Below are positions 5,198 through 58,223 of a DNA stretch of 64,000 nucleotides, in pieces. The translations under genes were made by a program, and so were the position numbers. Position 1 is the first letter of the stretch, and every line of letters begins with the position of its first letter. The notes beneath the pieces were generated by a model. It was not told the origin of the DNA, searched no databases, and saw only the letters and a list, made by a program, of their open reading frames with translations. Source of the DNA: Nodularia spumigena CCY9414. GTDB lineage: Bacteria > Cyanobacteriota > Cyanobacteriia > Cyanobacteriales > Nostocaceae. The stretch spans positions 1,061,281-1,125,280 of the forward strand of contig NZ_CP007203.1 of the NCBI RefSeq assembly GCF_000340565.2. Direction: 5' to 3'.

Positions 5198-5541
5198 TTA
5201 GGGCGTGGGGAGTGGGGAGTGTGGGGAGTGTGGGGAGTGTGGGAGGTGTGGGGAGAAGACGGTAACTTCCTAATGACTAATGACCAATGACCAATGACCA
5301 ATGACCAATGACCAATGACTAATCCTTTTTAAAGTTAAGGATAAGCTGGCATTTTTTGGATGAAGACTTGATTTAGAAACGCCAGTTTTAGTAGTAATCC
5401 TTAACACCTCCAAGTGTGATTTTGCTATGTTTAGTAAAATGTGACTAAATTAATCAGTTTTACGGTGGCAAAGCTACGCCAAATTTTTCCATTAATGGTT
5501 AAGAGTAATGACGGTTTGTTATATCGACCAATGAGGTAACT
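5198..5541. other. 344-bp intergenic region
   Basis: The first 126 bp are the composite repeat described separately. The remaining 220 bp before the cupin gene are AT-rich. They presumably carry the cupin promoter, but no consensus -35/-10 pair is clear. Confidence 0.6.
5201..5323 (-). repeat. Composite repeat: G-rich tract plus ATGACCA heptamers
   Basis: 5201-5253 is a run of GGGGAGTGT-like units. After a linker (GAAGACGGTAACTTCC) comes an array of ATGACCA heptamers at 5272-5323. Read on the minus strand this is heptamer array, GGAAGTTACCGTCTTC linker, then a pyrimidine-rich tract. That is the same order as at 43503-43640 and 55259-56340. It is non-coding and lies just behind the glycosidase gene. 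Confidence 0.85.
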
Positions 5542-22574: not shown

Positions 22575-22712
22575 TCCTGACTTTGCCACAGGAATTTAAT
22601 TGTGATTTAAAAGCAATTTTGACCCTAAATAGCAAAATTAAGCCTTAAATATAGATTAACAGCAGTGCTGATGGCAGCCACAATATAATTGCTGATACTT
22701 TTTTGTGAACTT

Positions 22713-22800
22713 TAGTCATTAGTCATTAGTCATTAGTCATTAGTCATTAGTCATTAGTCATTGGTCATTGGGAAGTTTGTTTTCCCCTGTTCCCTGCTCC
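22713..22800 (+). repeat. TCATTAG heptamer array with pyrimidine tail
   Basis: About eight TCATTAG/TCATTGG heptamers (22713-22770) are followed by GGGAAGTTTG and a C/T-rich tract (CCCCTGTTCCCTGCTCC). It has the same heptamer-linker-pyrimidine order as the composite repeats at 43503 and 55259. Confidence 0.88.
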
Positions 22801-29787: not shown

Positions 29788-30087
29788 TGATCCATTGATT
29801 AAAAAAACAATTTTATATAATCTTAGGGTTGCGAAATTCAGCGACCCTTTTTATTTAGTCATTGGTCATTGGTCATTGGTCATTGGTCATTTGTCATTGG
29901 TCATTGGTCATTGGTCATTGGTCATTGGTTATACCCTTTTTATATGAAGGCGCATAGAAACAACCCCACCGCCTTCGGCACCTACCCTTGCTAAGGGGAG
30001 GTAGGTTTGGGTAAAAATAATGTGCAACTTCAGATTAATTCGGTATTAACCCCCCATCTTCTCCCGTTCCGTTTTAAAATCAATGTT
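29788..30087. other. 300-bp intergenic region, mostly repeats
   Basis: 29856-29930 is the heptamer array. 29965-30005 contains CCGCCTTCGGCACC and CCCTTGCTAAGGGGAGG, another dispersed palindromic motif. The DUF4079 gene could start as far left as 30007, but 30088 is preferred. Confidence 0.6.
29856..29930 (+). repeat. TCATTGG heptamer array
   Basis: About ten TCATTGG heptamers run in tandem, with one TCATTTG variant (about 29887-29893). Unlike the others it lacks the linker and pyrimidine tract. Confidence 0.9.
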
Positions 30088-42375: not shown

Positions 42376-43518
42376 ATGCCCTGTACAACTGTTGATAGTA
42401 TTTTGGATCATGCCCTCTTGGGGTACGATTTATCTCCCGCCGATGGAGTGGTATTGTTAAAACAAACTGACCCAGAAGCGATCGCAGCCATTCGGACTAC
42501 GGCTGACAAACTCCGCTACAGTCAAGCAGGCAATACTGTAACTTACGTCATTAACCGCAATATCAACTTTACTAATATCTGTGAGCAACACTGTAGTTTT
42601 TGCGCTTTCCGCCGGGATGACGGTGAGGCTGGTGCTTACTGGTTGGATTGGGCGCAAATTCTCGAAAAATCCACAGATGCGGTACAAAGAGGCGCAACGG
42701 AAATCTGTATGCAGGGGGGATTAAACCCACAAGCGCAAATCAACGGCAAGTCTTTAGATTATTACTTAAAGTTAGTAGAAACCATCAAGCAGGAATTTCC
42801 CCAGATACATTTACACGCTTTTTCGCCTCAAGAAGTGGAATTTATCGCCAGAATTGACGGTATTGAATATGCTGATGTAATTGCTGCTTTGCGGGATGCT
42901 GGTGTAGGCTCAATGCCAGGAACAGCAGCTGAGGTGTTAGATGATCAAGTGCGGCGGGTACTGTGTCCAGAAAAGATTGATACAGCCACTTGGTTAGAAA
43001 TTGTAGGTACAGCCCATAAATTAGGTTTACCGACTACTAGCACTATACTATCGGGGCATATTGAAACGCCAGAACAACAAATTGGGCATTTAGAAAAATT
43101 GCGATCGCTCCAAAAAACTGCCATCAATCAGGGATATCCGGCGCGCATTACCGAGTTTATTCCATTACCATTTGTCGGACAAGAAGCACCGAAATCATTA
43201 CGCCGTCGTGTCGGACGTGACCAACCAGTATTAAATGATGCTCTATTACTCACAGCAGTGGCGCGGATTTATTTGGGAAATTACATCCCCAACCATCAAC
43301 CAAGTTGGGTAAAACTGGGGCTAGCTGGTGCTACGGAAGCTTTATTGTGGGGTTGCAACGATATCGGCGGCACATTAATGGAAGAACACATTACCACAAT
43401 GGCAGGAGCTTTGGGTGGTACTTGTATGGAAGTGGAAACTCTACAAAATGCGATCGCCTCTCTCGGAAGACCCCACCAACAACGCGACACTCTCTATCAA
43501 AAAGTCATTAGTCATTAG
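42376..43518 (+). CDS. cofH: FO synthase subunit 2 (radical SAM, CofH)
   Basis: 380 residues. [23 protein letters not shown] has the CxxxCxxC cluster motif. [26 protein letters not shown] and [14 protein letters not shown] are CofH hallmarks. It joins a tyrosine-derived radical to 5-amino-6-ribitylaminouracil in deazaflavin (FO) synthesis. In cyanobacteria FO serves as antenna of some photolyases. CofG is not in the window. The last five codons and the stop (K-V-I-S-H-stop) lie inside a TCATTAG heptamer array, so the C-terminus is repeat-derived. Confidence 0.93.
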
Positions 43519-43640
43519 TCATTGGTCATTGGTCATTAGTCATTGGTCATTGGTCATTAGTCATTAGTCATTGGGAAGTTACCCTCTTCTCCCCCCTGCT
43601 CCCTGCTCCCTGCTCCCCTGCCTCTTCTCCCCACTCCCCA
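43503..43640 (+). repeat. Composite repeat: heptamer array, linker, pyrimidine tract
   Basis: Ten TCATTAG/TCATTGG heptamers (43503-43573) are followed by GGGAAGTTACCCTCTTCTCC, then CCCTGCT heptamers and CCCCTGCCTCTTCTCCCC. This is the unexpanded version of the large array at 55259-56340, and it overlaps the cofH stop codon. Confidence 0.9.
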
Positions 43641-54243: not shown

Positions 54244-55119
54244 ATGCACAAAGCATCTGCCTCTGACTTGACATTGACTGCTAACTATGCTAAAGCTGCA
54301 CAAAATATTAAGTTACTGGTTTTAGATATAGATGGGACGATTTCTGGAGAGTCTAACACTATCAGCGCACCTGTGAAGGAGGCGATCGCCGCAGTACAAG
54401 CTAAAGGAATTCAGGTGGCGATCGCAACTGGTCGGATGTATTGTTCGGCTTTACGCTTCCATCAAGAAATTAACTCTCTGCTGCCATTATCAGCTTATCA
54501 GGGCGCTTGGATTCAAGACCCAGCTAATCAGAAAATTCATCGTCATTGGGCTGTTTCCAAAGACATGGCGCACCAGCTACTAGATTATTTTGAACAGCCG
54601 CATCTGCGATCGCTCCTATCCGTCCACTTCTATATAAATGATCAGCTTTACGTCCGAGATTTGAGTCCAGAAACTCAAATTTATGCCCAACGTTCTGGTA
54701 TTAATCCCATTGCTGTGGGGGATTTGCGCCAAGTCCTCAGCAATGAACCCACAAAAATCTTAGCTTTGTGCGACGATACAGAAGCGATCAACGAGCTATT
54801 GGGGAATTTGCGCCGCCAATACACACCTGCGGAACTTTATTTAACAACATCTGTCGCCACCTTTTTTGAAGCCGCTAATCCCTTAGTGAACAAGGGAACT
54901 GCGGTGCGTTACATAGCTGAAGAACTGCTAGGCTTAGAAAGTAGCAATGTGATGACTATTGGTGATAACTTTAATGACTTTGAAATGCTGCAATATGCTG
55001 GTATTGGTGTAGCTATGGGTAATGCTCCAGAAGGTGTGCAGGCGATCGCGCAATGGGTAGCTCCTCATGTAGAAAAAGATGGAGTTGCAACTGCGATCGA
55101 GAAGTTTTTACTGTCGTAA
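54244..55119 (+). CDS. Cof-type HAD-IIB phosphatase
   Basis: 291 residues. LLVLDIDGTISGESN is HAD motif I with the nucleophile Asp. VAIATGRMYCSALRFH is motif II, and VMTIGDNFNDFEMLQYAG is motif IV. The C2B cap in between is typical of Cof/YbjI sugar-phosphate phosphatases. It divergently abuts polA, 75 bp apart, with AGGGA before the ATG. The substrate is unknown. Confidence 0.9.
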   Translation: MHKASASDLTLTANYAKAAQNIKLLVLDIDGTISGESNTISAPVKEAIAAVQAKGIQVAIATGRMYCSALRFHQEINSLLPLSAYQGAWIQDPANQKIHRHWAVSKDMAHQLLDYFEQPHLRSLLSVHFYINDQLYVRDLSPETQIYAQRSGINPIAVGDLRQVLSNEPTKILALCDDTEAINELLGNLRRQYTPAELYLTTSVATFFEAANPLVNKGTAVRYIAEELLGLESSNVMTIGDNFNDFEMLQYAGIGVAMGNAPEGVQAIAQWVAPHVEKDGVATAIEKFLLS

Positions 55120-55258
55120 GAGTATTATTTTTATCTAATAAAATCAGAAAAGACACCGACGACTGACCGTGTTTCGTCTCGGTGCCTTCGCTGGTTCGCT
55201 CCTCACACACCTGATAATATAGCCGAGGTTATTAAATGAGTCAATACTTACGAGAAAA

Positions 55259-55353
55259 GTCATTAGTCATTAGTCATTGGTCATTAGTCATTAGTCATTA
55301 GTCATTAGTCATTAGTCATTAGTCATTAGTCATTGGGAAGTTACCGTCTTCTC
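55259..55353 (+). repeat. TCATTAG heptamer array plus linker leading into the minisatellite
   Basis: About eleven TCATTAG/TCATTGG heptamers (55259-55335) are followed by GGGAAGTTACCGTCTTCTC, which joins directly to the 36-bp tandem array. It has the same order and orientation as at 43503-43640. Confidence 0.92.
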
Positions 55354-56325
55354 CCCCCTGCACCCTGCACCCTGCCCCCCTGCCTCTTCCCCCCTGCACC
55401 CTGCACCCTGCCCCCCTGCCTCTTCCCCCCTGCACCCTGCACCCTGCCCCCCTGCCTCTTCCCCCCTGCACCCTGCACCCTGCCCCCCTGCCTCTTCCCC
55501 CCTGCACCCTGCACCCTGCCCCCCTGCCTCTTCCCCCCTGCACCCTGCACCCTGCCCCCCTGCCTCTTCCCCCCTGCACCCTGCACCCTGCCCCCCTGCC
55601 TCTTCCCCCCTGCACCCTGCACCCTGCCCCCCTGCCTCTTCCCCCCTGCACCCTGCACCCTGCCCCCCTGCCTCTTCCCCCCTGCACCCTGCACCCTGCC
55701 CCCCTGCCTCTTCCCCCCTGCACCCTGCACCCTGCCCCCCTGCCTCTTCCCCCCTGCACCCTGCACCCTGCCCCCCTGCCTCTTCCCCCCTGCACCCTGC
55801 ACCCTGCCCCCCTGCCTCTTCCCCCCTGCACCCTGCACCCTGCCCCCCTGCCTCTTCCCCCCTGCACCCTGCACCCTGCCCCCCTGCCTCTTCCCCCCTG
55901 CACCCTGCACCCTGCCCCCCTGCCTCTTCCCCCCTGCACCCTGCACCCTGCCCCCCTGCCTCTTCCCCCCTGCACCCTGCACCCTGCCCCCCTGCCTCTT
56001 CCCCCCTGCACCCTGCACCCTGCCCCCCTGCCTCTTCCCCCCTGCACCCTGCACCCTGCCCCCCTGCCTCTTCCCCCCTGCACCCTGCACCCTGCCCCCC
56101 TGCCTCTTCCCCCCTGCACCCTGCACCCTGCCCCCCTGCCTCTTCCCCCCTGCACCCTGCACCCTGCCCCCCTGCCTCTTCCCCCCTGCACCCTGCACCC
56201 TGCCCCCCTGCCTCTTCCCCCCTGCACCCTGCACCCTGCCCCCCTGCCTCTTCCCCCCTGCACCCTGCACCCTGCCCCCCTGCCTCTTCCCCCCTGCACC
56301 CTGCACCCTGCCCCCCTGCCTCTTC
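55354..56325. repeat. Minisatellite: 27 identical copies of a 36-bp unit, G-quadruplex-prone
   Basis: The unit contains two CCCTGCA heptamers, then CCCTGCCCCCCTGCCTCTTC. All copies look identical by inspection: 972 bp equals 27 x 36, and the text repeats exactly every 180 bp. The minus strand of each unit reads GGGGGG, CA, GGG, TGCA, GGG, TGCA, GGGGGG, i.e. four G-tracts with 2-4-nt loops. Because 36 is a multiple of three and some frames lack stops, long frames exist on both strands. They have no protein character and are not genes. There are no spacers, so it is not CRISPR. Confidence 0.97.
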
Positions 56326-56343
56326 TTACTCCCCACTCCCCAG

Positions 56344-57171
56344 CTATAACTCCACAGGAGCAACAGCACCCAGTTTGTCTACCAGTAAACACCTCAACAC
56401 AGACTGAGTAGCGATTACTAATCCCAGTCTGGCTTGGGATAATTCTGGGAAAGAAATTTTTACCTTACCCCAAATACGACACTGGCTCCAAAACGCCTCA
56501 AAAGCTTGACTTAAATTCAGTGCTACTTTTTCCCAGTTCACCGCACCACTCAAATCAGGACACTCTAAATTGTCTATCACTTCTACTAACTCGGCAATTA
56601 AACGACCCTCTGCTGGGTGACTGAGGCGGAGTTTTTGCTCATCGTTGAGCCAAGGTATTTGCTCTATTGACACCAAATTTGGCATCGGTTCTGTAAGCTT
56701 AATTAATCCTTCTCGGTGAGCTAGCAGCAGCAATGAGCAGCAGCGTGCATGAGCGTATTGAATAGTAAACAAACGAGACAGATTTTGTTTGGTAATTTTG
56801 CTTGTTTCCATTTCCCCACCACTAACTGCATTGGTAACTACCAGGCTTTGTAACCAAGTAGCTAAAAATTGATGGGTTAATTCCAAATAAATCCATCCAG
56901 GGGGAACTATTTCTACCCTAAAAACGTCGCCACGCTGTGCTGATAAGTGAGAGACAATACCACTGGCTATCTCCAGATTTGTTTGATTATGAGATTTCCC
57001 CAACCGGAGGGCGACACCTGAAATATATAAAACTCGACTATTGTCTCTACCTTTGTAGAGAGGAAATTTTTTAGTTTCAATGCTGATCAATTCATTATTC
57101 AGTGTATCAATACTTAGGGCATATACTAAGTAGCTATATATTAAGCTTTTAATTGCTGTATAGTTGCTCAT
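56344..57171 (-). CDS. DALR anticodon-binding domain protein (ArgRS-like without catalytic core)
   Basis: 275 residues. The C-terminal half has the helical DALR anticodon-binding fold of arginyl-tRNA synthetase: FTIQYAHARCCSLLLLAHREG, HPAEGRLIAELVEVID, LSQAFEAFWSQCRIWG and ARLGLVIATQSVLRCLL. The N-terminal half resembles the ArgRS additional domain and adjacent strands (YISGVALRLGKSHNQTNLEIA). HIGH- and KMSK-type signatures are absent, so it cannot aminoacylate. It may bind tRNA. Its stop codon lies 18 bp from the G-rich minisatellite, so its mRNA 3' region would be G-rich. Confidence 0.82.
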   Translation of the reverse strand: MSNYTAIKSLIYSYLVYALSIDTLNNELISIETKKFPLYKGRDNSRVLYISGVALRLGKSHNQTNLEIASGIVSHLSAQRGDVFRVEIVPPGWIYLELTHQFLATWLQSLVVTNAVSGGEMETSKITKQNLSRLFTIQYAHARCCSLLLLAHREGLIKLTEPMPNLVSIEQIPWLNDEQKLRLSHPAEGRLIAELVEVIDNLECPDLSGAVNWEKVALNLSQAFEAFWSQCRIWGKVKISFPELSQARLGLVIATQSVLRCLLVDKLGAVAPVEL

Positions 57172-57503
57172 TAGTAGCTTTTAATATCATAAACCTGCAC
57201 TCAAGAGGTATACTTTACTTATTTGTATATTTTCTTCAGCTATCTTAAGATATAAATCTAAACTTGATGAAGAAAAATGAGAGTAGCATAAAATTTGATG
57301 AATATTCTATGAATAGTAAGTAAATTTTACTACAATCATTGTACAGTAGGAAGTATAACAAAAGAGTAGAGTGCAAATTAACTGCTTTTCTACTCTTTGT
57401 ATGGCTGGCGCTGTTAGGCGTTAAGCCTACTCTGCCAACACAAAGACACTCCTTGCACCTTTTTATTACGTCTTTGTCTTCAGCCGAACGCTCTTTGTTA
57501 CCT
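57172..57503. other. 332-bp divergent intergenic region
   Basis: It separates the DALR gene from the Crp-family gene. AGTAAATTTTACT (57319-57331) is a short palindrome that could be an autoregulatory operator. The frame of the Crp gene stays open leftward to 57339, but the hydrophobic extension has no family counterpart. Confidence 0.5.
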
Positions 57504-58223
57504 ATGCAATCTCCATCTTCTTTTTCTGAGGCATCACGGCCTTTTTTGACTTGGCAACGAATTCTTGACTGGGCTCAAGAACACTATCGCTGCCGCACCT
57601 TTAGCAAAGATGAACGCATTCCAGCCCGGCCTGGATTGCTCTACTTGGTACAAAGGGGTGCTATCCGCATGGTAGGAACCGCACAAGTTAGTGCTACTGC
57701 TAGTCAGCTAACATCTCGACGAATTAACAGAACTCCAGAAGAAGCCTTTTTGGGTTTTGTCGGTGCGGGACAGCCATTTGAAATTGTTGCTCAGTCACCA
57801 TTCACGCTCCAAGCATACGCCCACGTTGACCAAACTGCGGTGCTGTGGATGTACTGGCACGATTTAGACAACTGGCCACACTTCCGGCGTGAAGTCATGG
57901 ATGCCTTTAGGTATCAGCACCAGCGTAAATTGCTGTGGCTAAGTGCCTTGGGACAACGGCGCACAATTGACCGACTCTTAGGATTCCTCACACTCTTGAT
58001 TGAGGAATATGGAGAGCCATCCATGAGCGAAACCGACCCCGATGTGATTCGTGGGTACGCTTTGCCCTTCCCCTTGACTCATGCCCAAATTGGTAGCGCT
58101 ATTGGTTCAACTCGTGTAACTGTGACTCGCTTGATGGGCAAGTTGCGTCAACGCGGTTTAATTCTGACTCAAGGAGACAATCTCATTTGCTTGCCGGCAG
58201 ATTCGATCAATCGAGTCAACTAA
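57504..58223 (+). CDS. Crp/Fnr-family transcription regulator
   Basis: 239 residues from the ATG at 57504 (MQSPSSFSEASRPFLTWQRI). The effector beta-roll (FSKDERIPARPGLLYLVQRGAIRM, FLGFVGAGQPFEIV) has an insertion at about residues 60-75 relative to Crp. The winged helix contains LTHAQIGSAIGSTRVTVTRLMGKLRQRG. Canonical cAMP-contact residues are not evident and no cysteines mark an Fe-S sensor. It differs from the 35735 protein. The effector and targets are unknown. The upstream-extended reading is rejected because it lacks homologous features. Confidence 0.86.
   Translation: MQSPSSFSEASRPFLTWQRILDWAQEHYRCRTFSKDERIPARPGLLYLVQRGAIRMVGTAQVSATASQLTSRRINRTPEEAFLGFVGAGQPFEIVAQSPFTLQAYAHVDQTAVLWMYWHDLDNWPHFRREVMDAFRYQHQRKLLWLSALGQRRTIDRLLGFLTLLIEEYGEPSMSETDPDVIRGYALPFPLTHAQIGSAIGSTRVTVTRLMGKLRQRGLILTQGDNLICLPADSINRVN

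Follow-up and report, generated by a model that had tools for sequence, protein, structure and literature searches.

The intergenic space between a HAD-family hydrolase gene and a DALR anticodon-binding-domain protein gene in Nodularia spumigena CCY9414 is filled largely by the 36-bp unit CCCCCCTGCACCCTGCACCCTGCCCCCCTGCCTCTT, present in 27 adjoining copies that agree in every letter. This array is probably a bacterial minisatellite that started from a dispersed heptamer-type repeat and grew by slippage or recombination. Comparison of the related loci places the unit within a composite repeat dispersed in Nodularia-like genomes, of which it is the C-rich module; the array has most likely not been selected for any function. 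The features on which the argument draws, in the coordinates of the window (the whole analysed stretch of 64,000 nucleotides), are:

54244..55119, plus strand: HAD-family hydrolase gene (Hydrolase_3)
55145..55212, minus strand: Yfr2-family small RNA gene (Rfam Cyano-1, RF01701), between the HAD gene and the composite
55216..55244, minus strand: putative sigma70-like promoter of the small RNA, read by eye
55258..55334, plus strand: 11 AGTCATT-type heptamers (TRF), the STRR-like 5' module, present also at this site in the congener G001
55330..55352, plus strand: junction TCATTGGGAAGTTACCGTCTTCT, leading from the heptamers to the C-rich module
55353..56324, no strand assigned: 27 exact 36-bp tandem units, C-rich on the plus strand and with the quadruplex motif on the minus strand
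56325..56343, plus strand: 3' end of the composite, CTTACTCCCCACTCCCCAG, running to the stop codon of the DALR gene
56344..57171, minus strand: DALR anticodon-binding-domain protein gene, convergent with the HAD gene
57339-58223, plus strand: Crp-type regulator gene (Pfam), beyond the DALR gene
43503..43640, plus strand: unexpanded sibling composite, with heptamers, GGGAAGTTAC, one C-rich unit and CTCCCCACTCCCC

The borders of the array were fixed by exact search, and TRF returned a period of 36, 27.1 copies and 100% matches, i.e. the head-to-tail, near-identical units of a minisatellite; dinucleotide-shuffled windows searched for the same unit gave no match. The earlier note on this DNA had reported 27 perfect 36-bp copies, all looking identical, and both the number and the identity stand, but its start and end each lay one base too far to the right. 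The 27 units do not differ from each other at any of the 972 bp (95% upper bound of approximately 0.3% per site), and their G+C content is 75% vs 42% for the window. The copy number comes from one assembly, and one might argue that the real locus contains one or a few units, since short reads are unable to count perfect repeats over 972 bp and polishing may make copies seem identical. However, the genome is assembled in one 5.46-Mb contig and the window contains no N, and the several arrays with differing units and periods described below would each need a separate artefact, so that we give this explanation little credence. A Nodularia chromosome has been sequenced by PacBio and Illumina, as PMC8609519 reports. 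Searches for the locus in 72,556 plasmid records returned no match, nor did an exact 80-base search of a genome contig collection, from which the own and near genomes are perhaps absent.

The parent element from which the array is built is a composite with a fixed order: AGTCATT-type heptamers, GGGAAGTTAC, CTTCT, a C-rich unit and CTCCCCACTCCCC. The array forms the inner part of one such composite, in which the 11 AGTCATT-type heptamers are followed by the junction GGGAAGTTACCGTCTTCT, the C-rich units and the 3' end given above. The junction motif GTCATTRGGAAGTTA occurs 36 times in the genome. The sibling composite in the same window carries its single C-rich unit at 43591-43626, with 3 mismatches. 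Each unit in turn consists of four degenerate heptamers (N)CCCTGC and CTCTT; thus one unit corresponds to one four-tract motif and the whole may be described as a two-level repeat. The earlier interpretation was right in part, and the composite parent, the two-level build and the nearby yfr2-type small RNA gene had gone unnoticed in it. The window contains further relatives of the composite: at 5201-5323 a copy in the opposite orientation, with GGGGAGTGT repeats followed by GAAGACGGTAACTTCC and AATGACC heptamers and without the 36-bp unit, and heptamer tracts of the TTAGTCA / GTCATTG type at 22712-22769 (8 copies) and 29858-29929 (10 copies).

The unit is not confined to this locus. Allowing up to 3 mismatches, it was found at 139 places in its own genome, while the reversed unit, used as a control at the same threshold, was found at none. 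Among the named matches of the DALR protein, the best two come from Nodularia assemblies; in the four congeners compared the unit occurs 13 times (G001) and 18, 31 and 78 times. Outside the genus, again with up to 3 mismatches, another genus contributes one genome with 21 copies (G029), and six more genomes have one or two each, so that 12 of the 60 genomes searched contain any copy at all. A strict pattern for tandem pairs is matched in 4 of 217 family genomes, all within the Nodularia-like genus: 66 times in the own genome, once in G002, three times in G003, nine times in G004 and never in G001, where G003 (290 contigs) and G004 (50 contigs) are draft assemblies that may have lost arrays, G001 is a single contig and G002 comprises four. 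The view of the earlier note, that one unusual kilobase interrupts an otherwise ordinary chromosome, is contradicted by the 139 close copies and by at least 8 other loci with arrays of at least 5 related units. A literature search at the level of titles and opening lines of abstracts, for which subscription papers were mostly out of reach, found no 36-bp GGGNGCA-type array in Nodularia.

The orthologous sites allow the history of the array to be reconstructed. In G001 the site is occupied by a composite with both ends alike and with no 36-bp unit, whereas the orthologous sites of G002, G003 and G004 have no such composite (a second DALR-like place in G003 lay outside this comparison); the copy number thus differs among relatives, as in minisatellites. 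Four further orthologous loci (L049, L055, L056 and L065), which contain no HAD/DALR pair, were uninformative. Because both the place and the ends are the same in G001, the composite was most likely present at this site in the common ancestor of the two genomes. Compared with G001, the HAD gene is 93.5% identical at the DNA level, the yfr2 region 93.6% and the DALR gene 86.3%, i.e. the flanks have diverged by 6.5%, 6.4% and 13.7%. With zero differences within the array, this implies that the array arose long after the separation from G001 or has been kept uniform. Together with the unit-free composite in G001 and the three congeners that lack the composite, this uniformity argues for a local and recent origin, and the proposal of the earlier note that identical units mean very recent expansion or active homogenisation gains support from it. 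In Tolypothrix, Calothrix and Nostoc (L072, L076, L078) the gap between the HAD and DALR genes contains other heptamer tracts with C-rich tails, from which it seems that this gap has gained such elements more than once.

Similar expansions have taken place elsewhere in the genome. A TRF survey of 60 loci, from which arrays of less similar units would escape, revealed arrays of at least 5 related units at no fewer than 8 further loci, with periods of 36-50 bp and 94-100% matches. The shorter-period arrays (copies x period) are 5.4x38, 11.3x38, 8.4x39, 6.4x36 and 5.2x36, and since the unit or the period differs among them, each of the 36-39-bp arrays must have grown locally. The 50-bp arrays (14.4x50, 11.1x50, and 7.4x50 with 10.0x50 at one locus) share one unit among the three loci and a flank between two of them, and therefore are not independent. 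At the orthologs of the 11x38 locus the composite has no unit in G001, G002 and G004 and a single unit in G003. At the 8x39 locus, heptamers followed by a C-rich tail, with no unit, are present in G001, and heptamers with a decayed tail in G003; no intact unit was found at this locus in G003, G004 or G002. The 5.2x36 array is part of the reading frame of a 1356-aa CobN-family gene, where it is read as (SSPLPPAPCPPA)5, i.e. five 12-aa units; among the cobN orthologs, two longer units are present in G004 and none in G001, G002 or G003.

L208:1007-5077, own genome: CobN/Mg-chelatase family gene with the in-frame repeat

This gene also contains a second short insert, KRQGGRVQGAGEK, which corresponds to the C-rich unit read from the opposite strand. 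It could be asked if the 27-unit array itself is a protein-coding repeat or a CRISPR array, because 36 is a multiple of three, long frames cross the array on both strands, and 36 bp is a usual length of CRISPR repeats. Nonetheless, the units abut and spacers are absent, which led us to reject a CRISPR array, and a coding function was rejected on the basis of the sister arrays with periods of 38 and 50. The frames are open in three registers (two on the minus strand and one on the plus strand), as expected for any repeat of period 36 that contains no stops, and the cobN array, for which the frames were searched, is the only one found in a Pfam-recognised gene. We regard either of these identities as very unlikely.

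Minisatellite growth from the composite could have proceeded as follows. Starting from the ancestral composite at the site, the C-rich module would have been multiplied to 27 identical copies in the lineage of the own genome. The first duplication may have arisen when the short CTTC-type motifs at the borders of the module slipped against each other, and subsequent growth by replication slippage or unequal recombination would have been fast enough for the copies to stay identical.

A competing view is that quadruplex formation was the true driver, in that the folded G-rich strand would stall replication and force recombination between units, as proposed by analogy with the CEB1 minisatellite in pif1 yeast. 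The minus strand of the array contains 27 non-overlapping G3+ quadruplex motifs, one four-tract motif per unit with the layout G6-CA-G3-TGCA-G3-TGCA-G6, exactly the four G-tracts that the earlier note had read there. The whole window has 28 such motifs on the minus strand (27 of them in the array) and one on the plus strand, i.e. two outside the array on both strands together, compared to a mean of 0.14 in 50 mononucleotide-shuffled windows. In an energy model with quadruplex terms, which is parameterized for RNA only and is no proof that the unit folds, one minus-strand unit favours the quadruplex (-12.1 vs -4.6 kcal/mol). According to PMC4692102, oligonucleotides of the related Nostoc heptamers GGGGAYT fold into quadruplexes in vitro in the presence of potassium, and the 27 potential quadruplexes of the earlier note are correct at the sequence level. 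The CEB1 precedent is pertinent, since its instability in pif1 yeast is reported to need a quadruplex-forming sequence (PMC2673046). Another class of structure-forming repeats, the intrastrand-triplex repeats common in cyanobacteria, has also been tied to instability (PMC4666352).

The relatives of the unit provide a natural control for the quadruplex as driver. The consensus unit of every array of at least 5 copies has at least four intact C3+ tracts, although single units within arrays can be damaged, as is one in the 6.4x36 array. Tract-broken units (CTCCGGTGC) are almost never tandem: they are so at none of 24 loci, or at one under a looser definition of a pair, vs 11 of the 35 loci with intact tracts (Fisher p 0.0015 and 0.0097, respectively), and arrays of at least 5 copies are found at 0 of 24 vs 5 of 35 loci (p 0.065), all in a post hoc test conceived once the arrays were known and with sets retrieved by different patterns. 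This contrast points towards a role of the quadruplex, short of proof. However, the control is weakened by that design, by context and by a partner arm: 5 of the 7 tract-broken loci inspected (4 of 6 in the own genome) also have a quadruplex-competent G-rich 5' arm, which is unamplified there. At L202, L204, L205 and L206, long hairpin-like elements combine a G-rich 5' arm (GGAACGGGGGCAGGGGGCAGGG...), a central part that contains GTTGTTAAGTAACCGGAAG or a near-match, and the tract-broken units as 3' arm. A preference for four tracts, suggested by their presence in 107 of 136 blocks (47 of 74 if distinct blocks per locus are counted) in a set mostly picked by similarity to a four-tract unit, is likewise weakened, since just 8 of 25 tail motifs sampled irrespective of tract number have four intact tracts. 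Moreover, the congeners possess intact units yet few tandems; in G001 none of the 13 units belongs to a strict tandem pair. Loss of RecQ, the helicase searched for, was rejected as a cause: its genes score over the cut-off in all five genomes of the genus, and no missing RecQ accounts for the difference in arrays. A role of the quadruplex in expansion is plausible, and that it was the actual driver is a possibility we consider real but hold only tentatively.

The neighbourhood raises the question of function. The small RNA gene matches RF01701 over its full length with 37.3 bits (E 4e-5), slightly under the Rfam gathering score of 41 bits, for which reason it is missed at default settings; the four congeners have orthologs with scores of 37.0-38.8 bits. 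There are two Yfr2-family members each in the own genome (G000), G001, G002 and G004, and three in G003. The core GTGTTTCGTCTCGG is present at all 36 of the HAD/DALR pairs inspected, a number that includes the own locus and one duplicate, and within 110 bases from it GTCAA is found at 32 and TATA at 36 of these loci. At the own locus the putative promoter consists of TTGACT (55244-55239), a 17-bp spacer and TATATT (55221-55216), and the AGTCATT-type heptamers begin 13 bp upstream of its -35 box. On the far side of the HAD gene from the array lies polA, and just past the DALR gene lies the Crp-type regulator gene, which we take to be ntcA, the nitrogen regulator. According to PMC6974561, Yfr2 of Nostoc binds Yfr1, and its expression rises in cells deprived of nitrogen.

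This setting would suit an array that is a selected, length-variable switch, which adjusts the activity of the yfr2 promoter or protects it from transcription running in from the DALR gene. Against such a switch, three of the four congeners have the small RNA without this repeat at the site, the genome has a second yfr2-type gene, and the other arrays examined sit elsewhere, one of them within a gene; we therefore find it improbable. The position of the array just upstream of the promoter could nonetheless have a side effect on promoter activity, and if the array is unstable, a conserved regulator could vary with it. More elaborate still, and in our opinion rather far-fetched, is a scheme in which the dispersed four-heptamer quadruplex module, part of a genus-specific two-level repeat, repeatedly seeds fast minisatellite growth throughout the genome and the length of the longest array alters yfr2 transcription and, via Yfr1 titration, the cell-wall and nitrogen responses, which would vary between cells or filaments.

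The own genome contains at least 9 loci with arrays of at least 5 units, dozens of single copies and tract-broken relatives, and the four congeners offer sites with no unit or one; taken together, they amount to a natural experiment on the expansion of bacterial quadruplex-type repeats.

Several known systems invite comparison. Elhai in 2008 (cited in PMC3116915) reportedly described the SDR as very small mobile repeats of cyanobacteria; by description, the composite is like them in being a short dispersed non-coding element of cyanobacteria, and we know of no SDR with tandem expansion on the scale of the 27-unit array. STRR are short tandemly repeated repetitive heptamers of heterocystous cyanobacteria. 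Tandem heptamers of this kind are found here in the 5' AGTCATT module only (55258-55334), whereas the 36-bp unit is not a plain heptamer tract and is joined to the AGTCATT tract in a fixed order. STRR have been used for the fingerprinting of Nodularia (PMC7150779). The array resembles CEB1 in being a tandem G-rich repeat with quadruplex potential; CEB1, however, is a human sequence assayed in yeast (PMC2673046), while the instability of the Nodularia array is suggested by genome comparison. A further comparison is with the GGGNATC and GGGGA(C/T)T heptamers of Xanthomonas and Nostoc, which PMC4692102 describes as dispersed, mostly intergenic repeats of up to 26 units with a preference for four, the bacterial G-rich heptamer repeats being presented there without a known role. 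The repeat studied here shares with them G-rich heptamers and a dispersed, mostly intergenic distribution, but its heptamer is GGGNGCA, a different sequence, and four such heptamers with AAGAG make up the 36-bp unit, of which there are 27 in a row. Overall, the array belongs to a known kind of cyanobacterial repeat that has recently undergone minisatellite expansion; its two-level build is unusual, and the same genome has seen several such expansions in parallel.
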